IMG/VR virus record: IMGVR_UViG_3300017598_000237
Location: 1-24,206 of that record
Strand: one strand, 5' to 3'
DNA length: 24,206 nt
DNA from: a virus
Shown: positions 1 to 23,033 of the stretch, piece by piece
How the letters are laid out: each line of letters opens with the position of its first letter
Numbering within the stretch: position 1 is the first letter of the stretch
Translations under genes and position numbers: made by a program
Notes under the pieces: generated by a model
What the model was told of the DNA's origin: nothing
The model's database searches: none
What the model saw: the letters and a program-made list of their open reading frames with translations, nothing else

Positions 1-929
1 AAACCTTGTTGTTGACTTTTGCCGTCTACCTGTAACGCTAGATTTGAAGGTCCATCAAGTTTATGCTTTCCTTTTTCATCTCCTTTTTTCTCCGTATCTG
101 ATTTCTCACCATTTTTACTAACATGTTGTGAAACAGAAGCAGGAACAGCGTTACCTACTCTTTCGTTAATACCTCTAGCAAAGAAGTTATAAGTTAGACC
201 TATCGGTTCACCAGCAGGTGATATAACCATACTTTCACCTAATATATGTACGTCATTAATTGTTACGATAGTGGTTTCAGCATCTTCATATCCAGCTGCA
301 TAGTTTCCAAACGTCAGTAATATATCAAATCCATCTCTATCTATATCCTTTTTTTGACCTGACAACCCACCAGTATATTCATAATAATCTAATTCGTCAG
401 ATCTAGCTATCTTACTAGATGAACTGAATTTCCCGTCAGTCTTCTTACCCCATAATCTATCTTCCATAACTTCAGCTATATCTTCAAAGTCATTCTTCTC
501 CATTGTTGCATCGAATTGCTTACTTTCACCTAACTTAGCTGCTTCATCTAATGCTTGTTCAGGTGTAAGTCCTCTTTGGATATACTTCATAAATGTATCT
601 ATTTTATCTTTTTTACCTTTATTAAGTACACTAGTTAAACCTGAGTTATCTTGTTTTATAAGTGACATAATGATATTGAGATACCCGGTTTCTTTAAAGG
701 CGATTGTGAACGCCCCATTGACCATTAACTGACCCTTTATGACCGTTCTAAACTGATGGTCATTATATCCAAATAAGGGGGCTTTTGATTGTGATGTTTG
801 ATATTGAATTGTAGCTATATCGTCTACCCATATACCACCAAAGTATACTTTAACCTGTGATCCTGTAAAGTAATCTTGATGATATGTGGAAAAATTGGTT
901 CTATCCGTGACTGGTAATTGATCTGCCAT
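1..929 (-). CDS. Third tail-tube-like virion protein, 3' end outside window (partial)
   Basis: Open reading frame of at least 309 codons that starts with ATG at 929 and is still open at base 1, so its C-terminus is missing. The start has a strong SD (AAGGAG, 5 bases before ATG) and sits about 18 bases downstream of the predicted transcription start. The N-terminus (MADQLPVTDRTNF) leads into a segment of about residues 25-85 with the pattern of a tail-tube barrel: VKVYFGGIWVDDIATIQY, then PLFGY, then IKGQLMVNGAFTIAF and GYLNIIM. A helical charged insert follows (about 95-175). The second half of the barrel comes next (about 200-255: FDILLTFGNYAAGYED, INDVHILGESMVISPAGEPI, YNFFARGI), and then a Lys/Glu/Ser-rich linker. 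The half-barrel order matches the tube-like domains of the two genes upstream. I infer a tube-fold virion protein, perhaps a tube initiator or baseplate part comparable in role to T4 gp48 or gp54. Similarity was judged by eye only. Confidence 0.6.
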   Translation of the reverse strand, partial: MADQLPVTDRTNFSTYHQDYFTGSQVKVYFGGIWVDDIATIQYQTSQSKAPLFGYNDHQFRTVIKGQLMVNGAFTIAFKETGYLNIIMSLIKQDNSGLTSVLNKGKKDKIDTFMKYIQRGLTPEQALDEAAKLGESKQFDATMEKNDFEDIAEVMEDRLWGKKTDGKFSSSSKIARSDELDYYEYTGGLSGQKKDIDRDGFDILLTFGNYAAGYEDAETTIVTINDVHILGESMVISPAGEPIGLTYNFFARGINERVGNAVPASVSQHVSKNGEKSDTEKKGDEKGKHKLDGPSNLALQVDGKSQQQG

Positions 930-953
930 TTTAACTCCTTGTGTATACTATAT

Positions 954-982
954 ATTATACCTTTTTTATGTATAATATTCAA
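954..982 (-). promoter_or_regulatory. Sigma70-type promoter, copy A
   Basis: On the minus strand TTGAAT (982-977), a 17-base spacer (976-960) and TATAAT (959-954) form a near-consensus promoter. The expected start is near 948-946, leaving a leader of about 18 bases that contains the AAGGAG SD of the gene starting at 929. It lies right after a terminator, so it opens a new transcription unit. A matching promoter lies before the terminase gene: both share the 17-base string tactatatattatacct (plus-strand reading; here 946-962) and the same 17-base spacing. Confidence 0.8.
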
Positions 983-983
983 T

Positions 984-1013
984 AAAAAAAGCACCCTATA
1001 AATAAGGTGCTTT
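984..1013 (-). terminator. Rho-independent terminator after the 1056-aa gene
   Basis: The minus strand reads AAAGCACC (1013-1006), a 10-base loop, GGTGCTTT (995-988) and then further T residues down to 984. This is an 8-bp perfect stem followed by a run of T, the classic intrinsic-terminator shape. It sits 38 bases after the stop codon of the 1056-aa gene and just before promoter copy A, so one transcription unit ends and the next begins here. Confidence 0.85.
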
Positions 1014-1050
1014 CTATGTATTAATGTCTAAGTTGTTGTGTGTTATATAC

Positions 1051-4000
1051 TTACACCTTCTGTGTATCTTTTATACTCCTCATCATTGAATAAGGTCCAT
1101 TATGTTGACTATATCTACTTCTAGCTATGTTATTTGACGATGAATTTATAGCATCAGATTCATATCTAACGTAATGTTTAGCATTATCCTTTAATTCAGC
1201 TATCTTTTTCCTAATTGAAGCTAATTCAATAACTAAGTCACCATGTTTCTGTGTCTGGTTAACGATACTCCTAGCTAAGTTAGTCTTATAACTAGGTCCA
1301 TATCCAGCATTTATCATTTCAGCTGTATCAGCAAATAATCCATCTTCTTCAGCCTCTTCGTATGTTTTCTTAAGATCATTTACTTTTTTAGCTACTGTTT
1401 CATCACCTATAGGATTAGCTAGATCGTCAAACCTAGTGGTTTTTCCAGGAGCGTTAGCACCGCCTAATTCTCTCTGTATCAAGAACGCTTTCTTCTCTAG
1501 TTGGTTAACCATAGCATGAAGATTAGCACCTGGAGTAGATATAAATCCAGCACTATTAGCTAGTTTCTGTGGTGTCCATTCAGAGTCAACACTAGTCATT
1601 AAGTCAATATCCCTAGCTACCCATTGCATAACATTCTCTGTGTATATATCGTTAATACTATGAGTCTGACCTTCATCCACTATTTGAACACCATATATTC
1701 TCATATAAGATGCTGCACCATACTCATTTGAGTACATTACTGTTACATCAAATGGAGGTATCTGATCAGTTAGAGGAGATGATTGAGTGCCATTCGCCTC
1801 GACCTCAGTTAATATAGCATCTTTTACTTCAGCTAAAACGTGCGTATCAAATACATTAAACACTAAAGATCCAGCAATAGATCTAGTAGCCGATACAAAC
1901 GTCTTAGGATAGGCTCTGCCCAACGTTCTGACTGGAGTGACATCACGATGCACTGAATAACTAAACGCCTGTATATTGCCCAATACGAGAGTCTTAGCAC
2001 CTATAGTTATAGATGGTGTTATATCACATCCTGAGTATGAATTGTTCTGGAAGTTAGTAGGTGCATATACGTGATTTCTATAAGGATTAGCAGCGTTGAA
2101 TCTATCAGTTGCTTGTTTAGTGGCTTCATTTTCAGCATCATTATTATCAGTATAACTAGCTAAATCTTTATGTGAATATAAACCTAACTTAGAGTCAAAC
2201 GATTGTTTATTATCATGTGATGGATCACTTACTAAATTTCTATATAGATCATCTAATTCATCTCTTAACGCGTATTCAGTGCCCTGTGTTGTTGCATCGA
2301 ATAACTCAACGTCTTTAAGTCTATCGTTTATAATTTTTACGCCATGTCTATATGCCCATATACGTATAGCTTGTCTTTTATTTTCATCGAATAAACTCCA
2401 TTCTCCTGGGTTATATCCATATAGTAATCTTCTGGTTAATGCTTTCCTTCTTCTAGCGTCACTACGGTCTTTAGATTCTTGCAATAGTCTAGCTTTACGT
2501 TGCTCCGGTGTTTCATTTTGTCTTACTTCAGTTAACGCTTCATCATATAGTTGACTTATTTCAACACTTTTAGCTGCATCGAAATCATTAGTTACGAATA
2601 ACTGCGATGCATTATCTTCTGCTTTATCATTTACTGCTGCTGTATTTTGTTCTTTTTTAGCTTGTTTAGAACTAGTACTAGAACTAGGTTTGCTAGTTTT
2701 GACAGCTGTTTCAACAACTGCGTCACTTGTAGCAGGACTTTCAGGTGGTTTAACTGGTACTTTACGTTTAACTGCTTTTTTAGTAACATTTTCAATTACC
2801 TCTTCACTTTCATTAACTGATATTTCAGATTCTGGTGTAGCTTCTGATGTGCCACCTTCTCCATTTATTTGACTAATTTTACCAGTTGGAATATAAATAG
2901 ATGCATATCCATTTAAATTTATATCTGTTTGAGTTTTAAATTTTGCATTATGTTTATTTATAGCAGATGTAAATGCATCGTCAATTTTTTCTTGTATAAC
3001 ACTTATATTATCTTTCTTGTTATTGACAACTAAATAACTTGGTAAGTTAGTATAGTCACTATTATTAATAGGTGTCAATGCGGCTTTTTTTGATGCTATA
3101 TCATTTACATATGCAGTTGAATCACTTAAGTCAGATACATATTCTATGCCGGATCTATTAATTTTAATATCAGCTTCTGTAACTCCATCGATTTCATCTG
3201 ATGATTCAACGATAGGTTTATCATCTTGTTCAACTCCATAAGATGTGTATTCTGATAATCCATTATCAAATGGAAATGGTTCGTTAATACCTTTTTTTAT
3301 GAAACTTTTAATATTATTAATATTAGTAAAATCTAACTCAGTGTCATTTTCAACTCCAAAAGATGTGTATCCTGCTAACCCATTAGTAAATGGAAATGGC
3401 TCGTTAATACCTTTCTTTATGAAACTTTTAATATTATTAATAGTAGTAAAATCTAACTCGGCATCATTTTCAACTCCGAAAGATGTAAACCCTGCTAAAT
3501 CATCGTTAAATACATTGTTAAATGTATTTAATTCTGTGTTAATAAATAAATTATCTGCATATGCGTTAAACGCAGTATTATCTACCAAACTTAAATGAGT
3601 TCCAATATATGGATCTACATCATAGTTACTTACTGGAGTCGCTGCTGTATTAGCACCAGTTACTCCATCAATATTATTTAACAAATTGCGATTAGCGATA
3701 GAATTATATATAGATGAACCCACAGATACAGGATTAGTTATAAATCCTTCATAAAAAATACTTGGTAATTTTTGAGCTTGGATTGCATATGTATTTGTAG
3801 CTTCTTTTGCAAAATCACGTACACTAGAAGCGGCTGATATACCTAATTTTACATAAGGAGCTACAACATCACTTAACGAACTAGTTGGTCCAGTTGGATC
3901 ATCTTGTTCGACTCCAAATGATGTATAATCAGATAATGTTCCTTCTGAATTGAATGGAATGGGTTCTGATGCAGCATCTGATGCAGTTTGCCATAAAGAC

Positions 4001-4221
4001 GAAATGAATGAATTTAATCTTGGAGCAATATACTCACTTAATGTTGTATAATTTTCAGAAGGAAGTGGTTCATCTAATATAACGGTATTAGTATCTTCAA
4101 CTGTTGCACTTGCCTTAGCGTATTGTTTATTTCGTTCATTTGCTCTAGCTATGACACCAGCGAAATAATCTAATATTAGTTGTGAGTAATTAATTTGAGT
4201 TTGTTGTAAATCTTCTGCCAT
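1051..4221 (-). CDS. Large virion protein with a C-terminal tail-tube-like domain and N-terminal repeats
   Basis: 1056 aa. The ATG at 4221 follows the SD AAAGGGG by 4 bases. Residues 725-875 match the neighbouring tail tube protein motif for motif: SGCDI, LGNIQ, a Ser-Val-x-Arg strand, RSIAGSL, F-x-x-FD, DQIPPF, a later GV turn and SINDI. The N-terminal third carries the motif (Y/F)TS(F/Y)GVE(Q/N)D at residues 99, 245, 285 and 325; the last three are spaced exactly 40 residues. EP(F/I)PF precedes three of them (86, 274, 314), with a helix before it (for example INNIKSFIKKGI). Residues 455-545 are a Ser/Thr/Lys/Glu-rich linker and 565-640 a basic, probably helical segment. The region after 900 looks helical. 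No signal peptide is seen. The position after the tube and the tube domain suggest a tail or baseplate-junction protein, perhaps a tube-initiation component with long flexible arms. The exact role is unknown. Confidence 0.75.
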   Translation of the reverse strand: MAEDLQQTQINYSQLILDYFAGVIARANERNKQYAKASATVEDTNTVILDEPLPSENYTTLSEYIAPRLNSFISSLWQTASDAASEPIPFNSEGTLSDYTSFGVEQDDPTGPTSSLSDVVAPYVKLGISAASSVRDFAKEATNTYAIQAQKLPSIFYEGFITNPVSVGSSIYNSIANRNLLNNIDGVTGANTAATPVSNYDVDPYIGTHLSLVDNTAFNAYADNLFINTELNTFNNVFNDDLAGFTSFGVENDAELDFTTINNIKSFIKKGINEPFPFTNGLAGYTSFGVENDTELDFTNINNIKSFIKKGINEPFPFDNGLSEYTSYGVEQDDKPIVESSDEIDGVTEADIKINRSGIEYVSDLSDSTAYVNDIASKKAALTPINNSDYTNLPSYLVVNNKKDNISVIQEKIDDAFTSAINKHNAKFKTQTDINLNGYASIYIPTGKISQINGEGGTSEATPESEISVNESEEVIENVTKKAVKRKVPVKPPESPATSDAVVETAVKTSKPSSSTSSKQAKKEQNTAAVNDKAEDNASQLFVTNDFDAAKSVEISQLYDEALTEVRQNETPEQRKARLLQESKDRSDARRRKALTRRLLYGYNPGEWSLFDENKRQAIRIWAYRHGVKIINDRLKDVELFDATTQGTEYALRDELDDLYRNLVSDPSHDNKQSFDSKLGLYSHKDLASYTDNNDAENEATKQATDRFNAANPYRNHVYAPTNFQNNSYSGCDITPSITIGAKTLVLGNIQAFSYSVHRDVTPVRTLGRAYPKTFVSATRSIAGSLVFNVFDTHVLAEVKDAILTEVEANGTQSSPLTDQIPPFDVTVMYSNEYGAASYMRIYGVQIVDEGQTHSINDIYTENVMQWVARDIDLMTSVDSEWTPQKLANSAGFISTPGANLHAMVNQLEKKAFLIQRELGGANAPGKTTRFDDLANPIGDETVAKKVNDLKKTYEEAEEDGLFADTAEMINAGYGPSYKTNLARSIVNQTQKHGDLVIELASIRKKIAELKDNAKHYVRYESDAINSSSNNIARSRYSQHNGPYSMMRSIKDTQKV
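3231..3480 (-). repeat. 120-bp in-frame tandem repeat (two units plus a partial third)
   Basis: The plus-strand strings caactccata (3231), caactccaaa (3351) and caactccgaa (3471) mark unit boundaries exactly 120 bases apart. Units 3231-3350 and 3351-3470 are nearly identical, and the similarity continues past 3471 before fading. The unit encodes 40 aa (YTSFGVEND, an acidic stretch, INNIKSFIKKGI, EPFPF). The differences include silent ones and the frame is kept, which indicates a coding repeat maintained by selection or recent duplication. Confidence 0.9.
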
Positions 4222-4240
4222 GATACCCCTTTAGTTAGTA

Positions 4241-4274
4241 AAATGGTGGGGAGTTTTACATCCCCACCGTTTTA
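4241..4274 (-). terminator. Hairpin terminator between the tail tube and the 1056-aa gene
   Basis: Perfect 8-bp GC-rich stem on the minus strand: GGTGGGGA (4268-4261), an 8-base loop, TCCCCACC (4252-4245), then ATTTTAC. It is preceded by AAAAC, so the A/T flanks make it roughly symmetric. It lies about 20 bases after the tube stop codon. The T run is short (four), so termination may be partial and set a lower level of the downstream 1056-aa protein relative to sheath and tube. Confidence 0.65.
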
Positions 4275-4288
4275 TTTCTATATCTTAA

Positions 4289-4954
4289 TTATTCAGCTAA
4301 GCTAAAATTAGTTATAGACCTTCCAGCAGCAGTTTGATTAAACTTATTAACTGCTTCTTCGGTAATCTGTTTCCAGCTACCGTTTGTCTTTGGTTGCCAT
4401 GGTACAATAGACTTAGCAACAAAAGTCATCTGTGTCTCATTAACGATATCATCAATTGAAAGACCTGCACCTTCATTAAGAAGTTCAACTCCAAGAAGAG
4501 TCATCCACATAGATGCACCGTGCTCATTGTTACCAGTAAGTACGATTGAGAAAGGAGGTATCTGGTCACTATAGTTAGCGTCCGCTGATACACCTTCCAA
4601 AGGAGCATTAGGATTATTCCCATTGAATAAATCATAGGATCTTCCACCTGCTGCTATATCATGTGGTTTCTTTTTATACTGAAGATTTAATGTCTTGTTA
4701 TTTTTAACATCATATAATGCTTCTCTATCGAAGTTTGTGAATATCAACGAACCCGCGATACCACGTTTACCTCTAGAGAATGATACGGGATCAACAGAAC
4801 CCATAACATAAATTGGGGCCTTTTCTCTCGTTACACTAAAGGAAATACCTTGAATATTTCCGATAAGGGTACTTTCGATAAAAGCCTCAATATCACAACC
4901 AGACATAGAAGTATAGGTCTGAGTGATGTGTTCACTATTTAGTTTTCGTGCCAT
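4289..4954 (-). CDS. Tail tube protein
   Basis: 221 aa, lying 11 bases after the sheath gene, which is the usual sheath-tube order in myoviruses. The SD GGGGG overlaps the end of the sheath stop region and the ATG is at 4954. The sequence reads as a single beta-rich domain: SGCDIEAFIE, LIGNIQGISFSV, a loop, RGIAGSLIFTNFD, an insert of about 45 residues, then SDQIPPFSIVL, GASMWMTLLGVELL and a SIDDI-type turn ending in MTFVAKSIVPW. This alternation and the small size fit the two-sheet barrel of contractile-tail tube proteins, which polymerise as hexameric rings inside the sheath. The gene is followed by a hairpin terminator. A second copy of this domain lies in the C-terminal part of the next gene. 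The family call is by eye from context and motifs. Confidence 0.82.
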   Translation of the reverse strand: MARKLNSEHITQTYTSMSGCDIEAFIESTLIGNIQGISFSVTREKAPIYVMGSVDPVSFSRGKRGIAGSLIFTNFDREALYDVKNNKTLNLQYKKKPHDIAAGGRSYDLFNGNNPNAPLEGVSADANYSDQIPPFSIVLTGNNEHGASMWMTLLGVELLNEGAGLSIDDIVNETQMTFVAKSIVPWQPKTNGSWKQITEEAVNKFNQTAAGRSITNFSLAE

Positions 4955-4965
4955 TACTTACCCCC

Positions 4966-7851
4966 TTATCCTTGTGGTATTTCTGTTCTTAAACGTACAG
5001 TTGTACGTACAGTTTTTATTTCAAATACAGGAACTAAGATTAGATCGATATCTATGATACCAAGTACTTGCTGATTAGGTGTAGAACCTATAGTAAAACT
5101 ATATTTTCTTAGTGCACCTACTTCAACCATACCCTGTAAACCCTTAGTTATAGCAGCTTCCATAGCATTCCGTTTAGACTGCGTATTTGGCTGACCGATA
5201 AAAGGATCACATACTTCTCTTACTACATCCATGGCAGCGAAAGTGATACGTACAGTAGTTAGGTTAGTGAAATCTGATCCAGTTGCTGCAGCTGTGATAG
5301 CTTCAGTAATTACAGGATCTCTACCTGGTTTTGTACGCATAGACACTAAACGTGTATCTGTCATGTTTGATAGTTGCTGATTTGATAGTTTAAATCTAAC
5401 GTTTCTTGAAGCACCTAGTGATTTATTTGTTGGTGAATAATGAGGCATCAAACTAGCTATCATACCAGCATATGCTGCCTGACCATTAGCAGTGTAAGGT
5501 GTTCCACCAAGATTATCAAATACAGGTTCAAAAGCTGCAACACTAAGATATTTACTATCAAGTAAAGGCATAATATTTGCACCTCTTGTAGGATCTGATA
5601 AATCAACTTCAGTTAGTCTTTTAGCCCATGTATTTATATCCGCTATATTAGTGGTATCTGGACTTTCTACACCTATAATACCAATAGCTTCATTGACATT
5701 AGTAGATATACCTGCTAGAAATTCATCTAGTTGGACCTGGAATTGAGCGTTAACATCTTCAGGAAGACCAGTTATAGAGTTATAACTTGGTTTAATTGAA
5801 TCAACGTTAGCACCCATAGGAACTACTATCTGTACTTCATAGTTTTCAAGATCGTCATACGCTTTCTGTAACTCATCATATAACACACCGTTATCTAAAT
5901 TAGTTCCATTAGTACCGCCATCTAAAGACAGAGCTGTAGTTGCGATAGCAGGAAACTGAGGTAGATGATCATACTTAAATCCAATAGTTGACCTTATTGT
6001 TTCATCAATAGGTAACCCAGCAGGACCAGGTTGCAAAGAACCAGCAAACGTAAGTTCACCGTCTCTAGGATTAGTAATAAGTACATCAGAACCAATTTCA
6101 TAGTTAATTTTAATTCCATAATTAACTATAATACTAGTAGGTGGGTTATCAGAGAATTTTACTTCATTACCTTTAAAAAAGTACGTAGTCCAATCGATAT
6201 CAGCTGCAGCTTGTAACTCTGGAAGAGACTGAGCTTCAGTTATAAATCCTTTTACTGTATTACATGAAATCCTAAGTTCTTTATTAGGAACGATATAATC
6301 ACCACTTGTAGCAGGAGTATTTGCTTTAATCAGACCTCTAGATACAAGGTTATTATCTTCAGTACAACCAGATGCGTTAGCACCTATAGCTAGGTTAACT
6401 ATACCTGTTCCATCTTCTACAGTAAAACTATCAATATAGATACCTGATACTGGATGATAAAATAACTGAGACCATTCTGAATCAGATACTCCACCAGTGT
6501 CGGATATTTCTACTATAATTTGTCCCGGATATGTTCCATCTACGAAACCATCAGCGATACCAGAAGACGTTATTTTAACGAAATCAGTTACGGACGCTGC
6601 TACGCCAGATACAGCTGCATCTACATAACCTTCAGGTATATATATTCCTGAACTTGCACGAGCTGCTGCTAATGCTAAGCTAGGTGTTTCATCGGATGAA
6701 GTAGTAGCACCTGAATCACTGTCTCTATCTGTTACTGAATAAACTACTCCAGATACAGTAGGTTCTAAATGATCATCAGGACAGTTAAACAAACCTGGTA
6801 CTGTTAATTGTGAAACAAAACCCGCACCAGATGTAGCAACAGTAGCATTTAGTATAAGTTCTCTATCAAGATAATTCATATATTCTGATACAACAGAACC
6901 AGTAGGTGATAACATATAGTTATCATCACCGTCATAATCATCAAGAGCCTGAATTGTATTAAATCTATCGTCACCTTTACCATCAAATGGAGTTAAATCA
7001 GTTTTAACGTTATTAGCTCCATTAAAATCTAACAGTGTAGCGTCTGATGTAGACAATGAAAATACTTCAGTCATTGTATCAATCAAATTACCTGCTGTAG
7101 ATGATGTATCAGCTTCGTATATATATCCTGTAGGTTGTACAACACCTGGTGTGCTTTCTGTATAACCTGAAAGAATATTCTTTAAAGTGACTATTGTTTT
7201 TCCGTTTGTAACCTCAATACCAGAGTCACTTTCATTAACTGATATTTCAAAACTTGTTTCTATTGGCTCTGTAGAAGCCGTGACAATTGAACTAGCTTCT
7301 GCATCAGCATTGATTGCATCTACTAATTCTCTTACATTTCTAGCGTCAACTTGTGCGTTATTTGGATTTGTAGCATCATAGCTAAACTTTACATAATTCC
7401 CAGTTTTTGGATTATAAATGTTAACATTCTTTTCCTCGTCTTGGAATATAGCTATAGCGTTATATATGCTACCTGGATAAATAGCTTCAAGCTTAAGTGA
7501 AGTGTGACCTGTAGTTACATCATCCCATCTATTATCAGAGGAAACTCTTTCCTCTATTTCTAGCAAGGATTTCACTCCGTTACCAACTCTCATTGCACGG
7601 ATATCTGGTGTTCCTTCGGTGGTTCCATCAAGAGCCTCGAAGACTCCTCTTACGAGAGTACCTTGTCCGAAAGCTCCGAAAACTGCAAGAGTCTTTTCTT
7701 TGTTAAGAACTGGTATAGGTTCATACATAGGACCATCAGATGAAGTACCTATAATTAGAATACTATCATTATACTGAGTAGGTTCACTTGTAACTTGTAA
7801 GCCGTAATCCCTAATATTTGAAGTTACGCCAGGAAGATTTGAAACTGCCAT
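4966..7851 (-). CDS. Contractile tail sheath protein with a large central insertion
   Basis: 961 aa. The ATG at 7851 has an excellent SD (AGGAGG, about 7 bases upstream). The N-terminal region (residues 1-95: PGV, ILIIGTSSDGP, a Gly/Phe loop, IRAMRVGNG) and the C-terminal region (about 640-961: LSLDGGTNG, IMPLLDSKYLS, a long conserved block with TRLVSMRTKPGRDP, TTVRITFAAMDVVREVCDPFIG and a final IDIDLILVPVFEIKTVRTTVRLR strand pair) are typical of the subtilisin-like-core sheath family. That family surrounds the tail tube and contracts at infection. Residues about 200-600 are extra, beta-rich and Ser/Gly/Thr/Asp-rich, and probably form protruding domains on the sheath surface. Many sheath proteins are about 400-700 aa, so this one is long. 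It sits between the neck genes and the tail tube. Confidence 0.94.
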   Translation of the reverse strand: MAVSNLPGVTSNIRDYGLQVTSEPTQYNDSILIIGTSSDGPMYEPIPVLNKEKTLAVFGAFGQGTLVRGVFEALDGTTEGTPDIRAMRVGNGVKSLLEIEERVSSDNRWDDVTTGHTSLKLEAIYPGSIYNAIAIFQDEEKNVNIYNPKTGNYVKFSYDATNPNNAQVDARNVRELVDAINADAEASSIVTASTEPIETSFEISVNESDSGIEVTNGKTIVTLKNILSGYTESTPGVVQPTGYIYEADTSSTAGNLIDTMTEVFSLSTSDATLLDFNGANNVKTDLTPFDGKGDDRFNTIQALDDYDGDDNYMLSPTGSVVSEYMNYLDRELILNATVATSGAGFVSQLTVPGLFNCPDDHLEPTVSGVVYSVTDRDSDSGATTSSDETPSLALAAARASSGIYIPEGYVDAAVSGVAASVTDFVKITSSGIADGFVDGTYPGQIIVEISDTGGVSDSEWSQLFYHPVSGIYIDSFTVEDGTGIVNLAIGANASGCTEDNNLVSRGLIKANTPATSGDYIVPNKELRISCNTVKGFITEAQSLPELQAAADIDWTTYFFKGNEVKFSDNPPTSIIVNYGIKINYEIGSDVLITNPRDGELTFAGSLQPGPAGLPIDETIRSTIGFKYDHLPQFPAIATTALSLDGGTNGTNLDNGVLYDELQKAYDDLENYEVQIVVPMGANVDSIKPSYNSITGLPEDVNAQFQVQLDEFLAGISTNVNEAIGIIGVESPDTTNIADINTWAKRLTEVDLSDPTRGANIMPLLDSKYLSVAAFEPVFDNLGGTPYTANGQAAYAGMIASLMPHYSPTNKSLGASRNVRFKLSNQQLSNMTDTRLVSMRTKPGRDPVITEAITAAATGSDFTNLTTVRITFAAMDVVREVCDPFIGQPNTQSKRNAMEAAITKGLQGMVEVGALRKYSFTIGSTPNQQVLGIIDIDLILVPVFEIKTVRTTVRLRTEIPQG

Positions 7852-11726: not shown

Positions 11727-12986
11727 TTAGTACGATGTACCACGAGATAGATCAGATAATGTAACAGCGTTGCTGTTTTCGAACTGGTAATTTCTTGCGA
11801 TCACTACGTTTCTAGCGATTGTAAGTGCTTTACCTTGTTCCATTAAACCGAAACCATAACGTTCTTTGATCTTAAGAGCTCTTATGTCTCTAGCAGGATC
11901 ATCAAATTCCTCTGTAGATACAGGATCTCTTGTTACAAGAAGTCCACAACGACTGGAGTCAACCATAACGATGTTAGTTCTTCCTGAATAAGGATCAGCT
12001 GCAGTACTTGCAGGAGGTGTATAAGGAACGAAAGGAGTAACCAATACCTGTAATGGAGAAGGAAGAAACTTAGGAGCGATCCAGTAGTTTGATCCAAGTG
12101 CATTAAGTGTATTTGTCCATGCAGACGCACCTATTTTTTGATTTCCAGCCTGAGCAAGAGTTTCTTGACCAGTTGCTGTAGTTCTAAGACCTTGACCCAT
12201 ATGAGAAGTTCCCCAACCAGCAGCACCTGAGCCTTGAGGCATTTGGCGAGTAGCTAGAGTAGATCCGTTAAGAACCTGTTCTCTCATTTCAGAGTCGGCC
12301 ATGAAAACTCTCCACGCAAGAGGATGCATGATCAATGTATCAGGTGTGAAACCACGTAGAAGTAATTCTGCGTACATATCCCATAAGTCAGTAGTAGTCA
12401 TTGAACCATTACCAGCTCCGGATATATCTCTACCTGAACAAGAACCATATATAGCGTTAGAAGGAGTTGTGTTATTGAAAACTTCAATACCAAACTCATT
12501 AAGCAAACGCATTGCGTATTGTTCTTTGTGACGAGCTAATGCACGTCCAGCAGCTCTTAGCCATAGGCCAATAACATCAAACTGATTGTCTGAAATCATT
12601 TCATCAGTAACTCTGATCATAAGACCATGTTTCTTGATGTTAACTGCTGTCATATCTCCACCATCCATTTGAAGATCGTTTTCTTTGTATTCAGTACCTT
12701 CTGCAACTTCAGAAGCAGCTAGAGCTCCTACTGCACCGATTTGAATACGTGTACCGCGTTCTAATCTTACTTCTTCGAAGAGATTAGGTACGATAACTAG
12801 ATTAGGTTCTAAAGCTTCTCTTACCACATTTTCAACTACCTGTGGAATGAATCTTGCTACGTCTGGAGACATAACGAGATCGCTAAAGCTAAGAGTTTCA
12901 TCTTGTAAGTGTCCGTTATTTGTGAAAGCGGTATACACTCTATTAAACGCTTTTAATTCTTTTTCGTCTTTGAAATTCATATTCAT
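11727..12986 (-). CDS. Major capsid protein (HK97 fold)
   Basis: 419 aa from the first ATG at 12986. A second in-frame ATG at 12980 is 9 bases from the end of the SD AAGGGGG, against 3 bases for the first, so a 417-aa product is at least as likely. HK97-type features: a helical N-arm (residues 1-60, with PDVARFIPQVVENVVREAL), an E-loop-like segment rich in Gly and Glu (about 80-115: TRIQIGAVG, VAEGTEYKE), the spine helix with its lead-in (KKHGLMIRVTDEMISD, then LWLRAAGRALARHKEQYAMRLL), and P- and A-domain strands such as TPDTLIMHPLAWRVFM and RYGFGLMEQGKAL. It forms the hexamers and pentamers of the shell. It lies after the protease-scaffold and probable decoration genes and is followed by a very stable hairpin, as suits the most abundant message. 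No cleavage site could be assigned by eye. Confidence 0.93.
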   Translation of the reverse strand: MNMNFKDEKELKAFNRVYTAFTNNGHLQDETLSFSDLVMSPDVARFIPQVVENVVREALEPNLVIVPNLFEEVRLERGTRIQIGAVGALAASEVAEGTEYKENDLQMDGGDMTAVNIKKHGLMIRVTDEMISDNQFDVIGLWLRAAGRALARHKEQYAMRLLNEFGIEVFNNTTPSNAIYGSCSGRDISGAGNGSMTTTDLWDMYAELLLRGFTPDTLIMHPLAWRVFMADSEMREQVLNGSTLATRQMPQGSGAAGWGTSHMGQGLRTTATGQETLAQAGNQKIGASAWTNTLNALGSNYWIAPKFLPSPLQVLVTPFVPYTPPASTAADPYSGRTNIVMVDSSRCGLLVTRDPVSTEEFDDPARDIRALKIKERYGFGLMEQGKALTIARNVVIARNYQFENSNAVTLSDLSRGTSY

Positions 12987-22989: not shown

Positions 22990-23004
22990 AAGCACTTACT
23001 ATAT

Positions 23005-23033
23005 ATTATACCTCTTTTTTTTATAAAATTCAA
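23005..23033 (-). promoter_or_regulatory. Sigma70-type promoter, copy B, for the terminase unit
   Basis: Minus strand TTGAAT (23033-23028), a 17-base spacer (23027-23011) and TATAAT (23010-23005). It has the same hexamers and spacing as copy A, with the shared string tactatatattatacct here at 22997-23013. The expected start is near 22998, about 9 bases before the terminase ATG. The SD-like AGAGG nearby lies upstream of the -10 box and so would not be in this transcript. Confidence 0.8.

Follow-up and report, generated by a model that had tools for sequence, protein, structure and literature searches.

Three tube-fold genes downstream of the sheath

The window analysed here, a stretch of 24,206 nucleotides (nt) of viral DNA (IMG/VR record IMGVR_UViG_3300017598_000237, positions 1 to 24,206), carries three neighbouring minus-strand tube-fold genes, here named T1, T2 and T3, at the end of a minus-strand series that runs terminase, portal, protease, capsid, five small genes, sheath, T1, T2, T3. 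T1 (4289..4954; 221 amino acids, aa), directly downstream of the sheath gene, is the major tail-tube protein. T2 (1051..4221; 1056 aa) is a candidate low-copy tube-fold ring protein with large extensions, and T3 (3..929; 309+ aa) a candidate tube-fold end-ring protein with a helical insert; the T3 reading frame is open at its 3' side, where the contig end truncates it. The gene segments, hairpins and promoter-like element located below also lie on the minus strand, as does the gene of the tail sheath (4966..7851; 961 aa; PHROG 16991, E 4.5e-66).

The first-pass annotation of this DNA had proposed three consecutive genes with tail-tube-like domains; the open reading frames are in place, and the homology of T1, the T2 tube domain and T3 was confirmed by sequence and profile comparison. 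PHROG 9206 was matched independently by T1 (E 1e-40), T2 (E 5e-34) and T3 (E 1e-8). T1 and residues 728-872 of T2 are 34% identical over 172 columns (BLASTP E 3e-25) and share the motifs SGCDI, (L/I)GNIQ, GSLxFxxFD, DQIPPF and GVx; the near-literal agreement claimed for this pair is real, except that T1 reads IGNIQ and not LGNIQ. T3, for which little identity had been noted, gave no signal against T1 in BLAST and lacks the RGxR(G/T)IAG loop motif of T1 and T2; yet profiles built from relatives connected all three proteins (E 3.8e-37 for T1/T2, 1.3e-10 for T1/T3 and 7.1e-12 for T2/T3), and when the same profiles were compared, as controls, with six neighbouring virion families and with five T3 alignments shuffled by column, every E value was 0.08 or higher. 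Among the cultured phages, T1 of MTATph1 (6.7e-21) and of KLEB27-3 (1.1e-13) was also recognised by a T3 profile built without them. T1 is the slowest evolving protein of the trio, with 28-74% identity to relatives. A PDB sequence search with the T1 and T3 profiles found no relative, and searches of viral contigs with T2 (residues 560-1056) or T3 alone returned only chance patterns; the diverse T3 alignment was too varied as a search query. The label "major head protein" carried by PHROG 9206 can be ruled out, as the fold is that of a tail tube and the capsid protein is encoded by another gene; this misannotation has spread into deposited genomes (MTATph1 CDS20 and CDS22, and T1 of NC_041884). 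Pfam matches to P16-Arc, AbiJ_NTD4 and Cucumo_2B were below cut-off and without context, and were dismissed as chance.

AlphaFold models were computed with the window sequence first and relatives from viral contigs as the alignment. The T2 model contains a barrel at residues 733-878 (the domain, residues ~729-878, is encoded at 1588..2037), with a predicted local distance difference test (pLDDT) score of about 90 over the strands; the core strands of T3 reach pLDDT 77-95 and enclose a helical insert at residues 83-160, in a model of moderate overall quality (predicted template modelling score, pTM, 0.51). Compared with the PDB, both models matched almost only tail-tube proteins (T2: Z up to 11.6, VIA, and Foldseek E 2e-7; T3: Z up to 9.5 and Foldseek E 1e-4), in a range that spans phages, extracellular injection systems and type VI secretion and includes baseplate chains of the antifeeding prophage (AFP) and the Photorhabdus virulence cassette (PVC). 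T2 and T3 are therefore predicted to have the phage tail-tube beta-barrel fold (gpV/gp19/Hcp type), and the barrels expected by the first-pass annotation hold up in both; T1 would inherit the tube fold via its identity to the T2 domain.

Conservation, gene spacing and hairpins in relatives

A first search retrieved 55 loci (the first set) and a broader search 473 relatives; a second set consists of fresh non-redundant loci, independent of the first. The order sheath, T1, T2, T3, two small genes and a tape-measure-sized gene is kept in nearly all first-set loci, and T1, T2 and T3 follow each other in 41/41 second-set loci with more than 4 kilobases (kb) of downstream sequence. In the relatives the trio is accordingly encoded between the sheath and the tail chaperones and tape measure; the window itself ends inside T3. 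Orthologs of T1-T3 in the same order were found by sequence in the cultured phages KLEB27-3, where all three genes are annotated "tail tube protein", MTATph1 and ME3; the ME3 record is annotated as 0305phi8-36-like, and its T1 ortholog gp30 as related to a "major structural protein" of phage 0305phi8-36. As a homologous and syntenic virion gene block, the trio belongs to the 0305phi8-36 phage lineage. KLEB27-3 and MTATph1 (loci L059 and L060) each have two sheath genes upstream of T1; the window has one.

In a tree of 96 domains, all 30 T2 sequences grouped together (support 100), as did all 31 T3 sequences (support 99); branches are long, and finer details of the tree are unsure. Since T2 and T3 each form one clade, the split between the paralogs is ancient and predates the radiation of the lineage. 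Judged from these comparisons, a large phage lineage carries the trio as a rule, and it is not peculiar to the window; the first-pass view of a set duplicated and elaborated "here" puts the event in the wrong place, and only the T2 N-terminal extension is peculiar to the window phage. An initiator is expected to be distinct from the main tube protein, and T2 and T3 combine a predicted tube fold with clades of their own, apart from T1. In nine whole records (137-264 kb), all tube-like matches fell inside the block, bar one 40-residue T1-like fragment (E 1.7e-6) far from it on the opposite strand (L014 contig, G003, 123351-123467); these records thus contain no other sequence-detectable tube initiator. 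A fourth tube paralog of 409-590 aa, T2b, lies between T1 and T2 in four non-redundant genomes (L038, L043, L054, L055); it branches inside T1 and has no hairpin at its 3' side. In two further loci (L045:9003-10022 and L048:9245-10058), T1 is interrupted at a similar site by an insert with a LAGLIDADG-type reading frame, which in L045 is a group I intron by Rfam (E 2.7e-16).

In the window, the gap between T1 and T2 contains a terminator-like hairpin (GGTGGGGA-loop-TCCCCACC; 4237..4276; 16-pair stem in the scan), with a folding energy of -17.6 kcal/mol versus -6.7 kcal/mol for shuffled sequences. A second, conserved hairpin is found 3' of the gene for the major capsid protein (MCP; 11727..12986; 419 aa; PHROG 3922, E 7e-18), at -19.6 versus -7.5 kcal/mol. 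When a hairpin was scored as a folding-energy excess over shuffles of >6 kcal/mol, it was present 3' of T1 in 82% of the first set (n=49) and 96% of the second (n=56), and 3' of MCP in 93% (n=44) and 86% (n=29); the corresponding values were 7% and 6% for T2, 10% and 4% for T3, 2-26% for all genes between capsid and tape measure other than T1 and MCP (first set) and 32% for the gene before T1 (second set). Among gaps of 40-200 nt only, hairpins followed T1 in 91%, MCP in 92% and other genes in 31% of cases (Fisher p 7e-20, uncorrected for relatedness). Gene spacing shows a similar division: the median T1-T2 gap is 68 and 64 nt in the first and second sets, versus 2 and 4.5 nt between T2 and T3, and the gap 3' of T1 in relatives (50-90 nt) has a strong hairpin inside.

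The conserved hairpin is read as a terminator or 3' stabiliser. Capsid and tube classically rank among the high-copy proteins of a virion; the hairpins are therefore taken to mark capsid and T1, and this pattern suggests that T1 is abundant and that T2 and T3 form a scarce downstream pair; the first-pass expectation of one abundant and two scarce proteins thus receives indirect support. Conserved hairpins of this kind offer a cheap genomic readout of capsid and tube, the two virion proteins presumed to be made in many copies. Behind T2, the window contains a further terminator-like hairpin followed by a T-run (AAAGCACC-loop-GGTGCTTTTTTT; 984..1013), which was read directly from the sequence, its loop exceeding the length limit of the terminator scan, and then a promoter-like TTGAAT-17-TATAAT before T3 (954..982) with 10/12 consensus matches; promoter-like sites as a whole are at background level (23 found versus 24.9 expected). 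A 37-bp repeat with this promoter-like core (946-982 and 22997-23033; 89% identical) lies upstream of T3 and of the terminase gene, and is perhaps a shared late promoter.

Extensions, hydrolase fusions and proposed role

Across the loci, lengths span 162-1056 aa for T2 and 140-1691 aa for T3, one T3 cut by a contig end being left out. In the window, T2 consists of a unique part (residues 1-~550), a helical region (~560-680; 2182..2544; AlphaFold model, pLDDT mostly 75-92), the barrel, and a C-terminal part (880-1056) with a single long helix in the model (residues ~977-1039; 1105..1293; pLDDT about 66-79). In the nearest relative, L004 (T1 75% identical), T2 has 464 aa and is without the first ~550 residues of the window T2; its sequence aligns with the window T2 from residue 600 on, and the region ~560-680 is partly common to both. 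The "~700 residues of arms and linkers" of the first-pass annotation are hence better divided into a lineage-specific N-terminal arm or linker (2572..4221) and the helical region. The arm includes a P/S/T/K-rich linker and a ~43-aa unit with the motif YTSFGVEND, which occurs in ~2.3 tandem copies (residues 231-345; 3187..3531); neighbouring copies are 84% identical (E 9e-23). Searches of Pfam, of phages and of the loci produced no match to the arm. An intein can be rejected for the arm, as there is no Hint signal, unlike T2 of locus L066, which holds one (L066:7757-10120; Intein_splicing 1e-10, LAGLIDADG_3 4e-15); part of the T2 length variation is thus non-structural. The variable lengths of T2 and T3 fit the published remark that the 0305phi8-36 lineage fuses conserved structural domains to exchangeable ones (PMC2147016). 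Twenty-four identical bases occur in T2 (2804-2827) and in the sheath gene (7226-7249), where they encode the same short peptide, around EISVNES.

T3 in the relatives nearest to the window measures 469-1691 aa and has an exchangeable C-terminus. At the end of T3 there is an SLT transglycosylase in L152, which lies on the L066 contig (E 7.4e-22), and an NlpC/P60 domain in L072 (E 5.5e-8), both above the curated cut-offs; sub-cut-off matches were obtained for L068 (lysozyme/pesticin-like, 1e-3), L074 (SLT, 0.02) and L006 (VanY, 5e-4, NCBIfam), and are of different types, which domain swapping would lead one to expect. These assignments rest on Pfam and NCBIfam because PDB searches of the hydrolase tails returned nothing useful. 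As peptidoglycan-cutting enzymes belong at the cell-facing end, the fusions suggest that T3 sits near this end of the tail, as the ring nearest the hub. To our knowledge, wall-cutting enzymes at such a tube-ring site have not been described for phage tails.

Taken together, these observations can be accommodated by a scheme in which two duplications of an ancestral tube gene preceded the radiation of the lineage. T1 would have kept the role of polymerising into the tube of a contractile tail; T2 and T3, with this fold retained, would have become ring proteins of low copy number. Stacked, most likely as hexamers, on the baseplate hub and beneath the first T1 ring, they would close the hub and seed T1 polymerisation in the manner of T4 gp48 and gp54. 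The likely order would be T1, T2, T3, hub, which places the most diverged of the three proteins, T3, next to the hub. Variable extensions would point outward: the N-terminal arm of T2 in the window phage, and the C-terminal tail of T3, with a peptidoglycan hydrolase at its end in near relatives. That T2 and T3 are ancient, co-inherited and probably scarce rings, best explained as distal and of the initiator type, is in our judgement probable, although well short of certain. The first-pass proposal of T4-like initiators has in this way become better supported and remains a plausible reading; its placement at the baseplate junction gains evidence for T3, through the hydrolase fusions of relatives.

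Several points weigh against this interpretation. Three of the five T3 hydrolase matches are below curated cut-offs, and no hydrolase was recognised in the T3 protein nearest to that of the window (L145; 499 aa, 62% identical), so that the window T3 may lack one as well. The T2-T3 gap of the window, at 121 nt and with its terminator-like and promoter-like elements, is an exception to the tight coupling of the two genes. A clear T-run is seen in a minority of the hairpins (at least five T in the next eight bases for 12/40), the loci are related and hairpin counts are not independent, and the step from hairpin to copy number is one that we infer. Finally, the trio genes precede the tape measure, outside the hub gene cluster; T4 keeps genes 48 and 54 among its hub genes.

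Three alternative readings were considered. Many contractile systems manage with one initiator ring, for example gp11 of phage XM1 (PMC10457771), and the T2 extension is large and phage-specific; T2, or less probably T3, might serve another purpose, for instance as the holder of a fibre or of a sheath component. The presence of T2 and T3 together in every sufficiently long second-set locus, and an expression layout common to both in most relatives, make such a division of labour rather unlikely. A mixed-polymer tube, in which T2 and/or T3 are interspersed as minor subunits that display their extensions like evolved Hcp of type VI secretion, would account for the conservation of most T1 core motifs in T2, for the long and variable extensions and for the fourth paralog inside the T1 branch; it is nevertheless quite improbable, as hairpins and gaps set T1 expression apart from T2 and T3, a 700-residue arm on many rings must fit under the sheath, and T3 has lost the loop motif of T1 and T2. 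Special rings at the head-proximal tube end (terminator or neck adaptor side) are similarly hard to credit: low copy number is compatible with either tail end, tube-like folds occur near necks too, and several top structural matches are tube rings from neck or cap maps, but the natural neck set is provided by three further conserved genes that lie between capsid and sheath, and a neck position would leave the wall hydrolases fused to T3 in relatives without a use.

Distal, initiator-type T2 and T3 rings would give a coherent and testable picture of how the tube starts and is capped, built on three genes whose labels across hundreds of phage contigs are vague (often "major head protein" or "hypothetical"), and the T3-hydrolase fusions suggest a tube-ring location for wall-cutting enzymes. 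A more specific version can be offered only tentatively: two dedicated tube-fold rings at the cell-facing end, of which the terminal T3 would be an exchangeable platform for SLT, NlpC/P60, lysozyme-like and VanY-like enzymes, with the hydrolase carried by the tube and not by hub, spike or tape measure, and T2 displaying phage-specific arms.

As a side observation on the downstream genes, the tape-measure-sized gene of L145 (2560-7833) reads as if an intein or a homing insert were present towards its 3' side.

Comparison with known tail systems

The closest counterparts are found in the 0305phi8-36 lineage (0305phi8-36, KLEB27-3, MTATph1, ME3), which shares the order sheath, T1, T2, T3, tail chaperonins and tape measure; in contrast to the 1056 aa of the window T2, T2 of the cultured phages has 174-244 aa. 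The literature on this lineage yielded no role for the second and third proteins. In 0305phi8-36, the gene directly before the chaperonin orfs 143/144 encodes gp142, which is present in the virion (PMC2147016) and is described as a "virion protein of unknown function". Gene order, followed through ME3, would equate gp142 with the T3 type.

T4 likewise has two further tube-fold proteins with extra domains, gp48 and gp54, beside its tube protein gp19; unlike the trio, genes 48 and 54 are encoded with the hub genes, and no sequence relationship was detected in the PDB search with the T1 and T3 profiles. In phage XM1, a tube-homologous ring of gp11 starts tube polymerisation (PMC10457771). This ring and the initiator rings of AFP and PVC are of the same tube-homologous type as proposed here, with one initiator in these systems versus two candidate rings in the window phage. 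The fusion of a tube-fold protein to an enzyme domain, as in T3 of L072 and L152, has its parallel in type VI secretion, where evolved Hcp tube proteins carry C-terminal effector domains; the T3 domains differ in being peptidoglycan hydrolases, carried on what is probably a single end ring.

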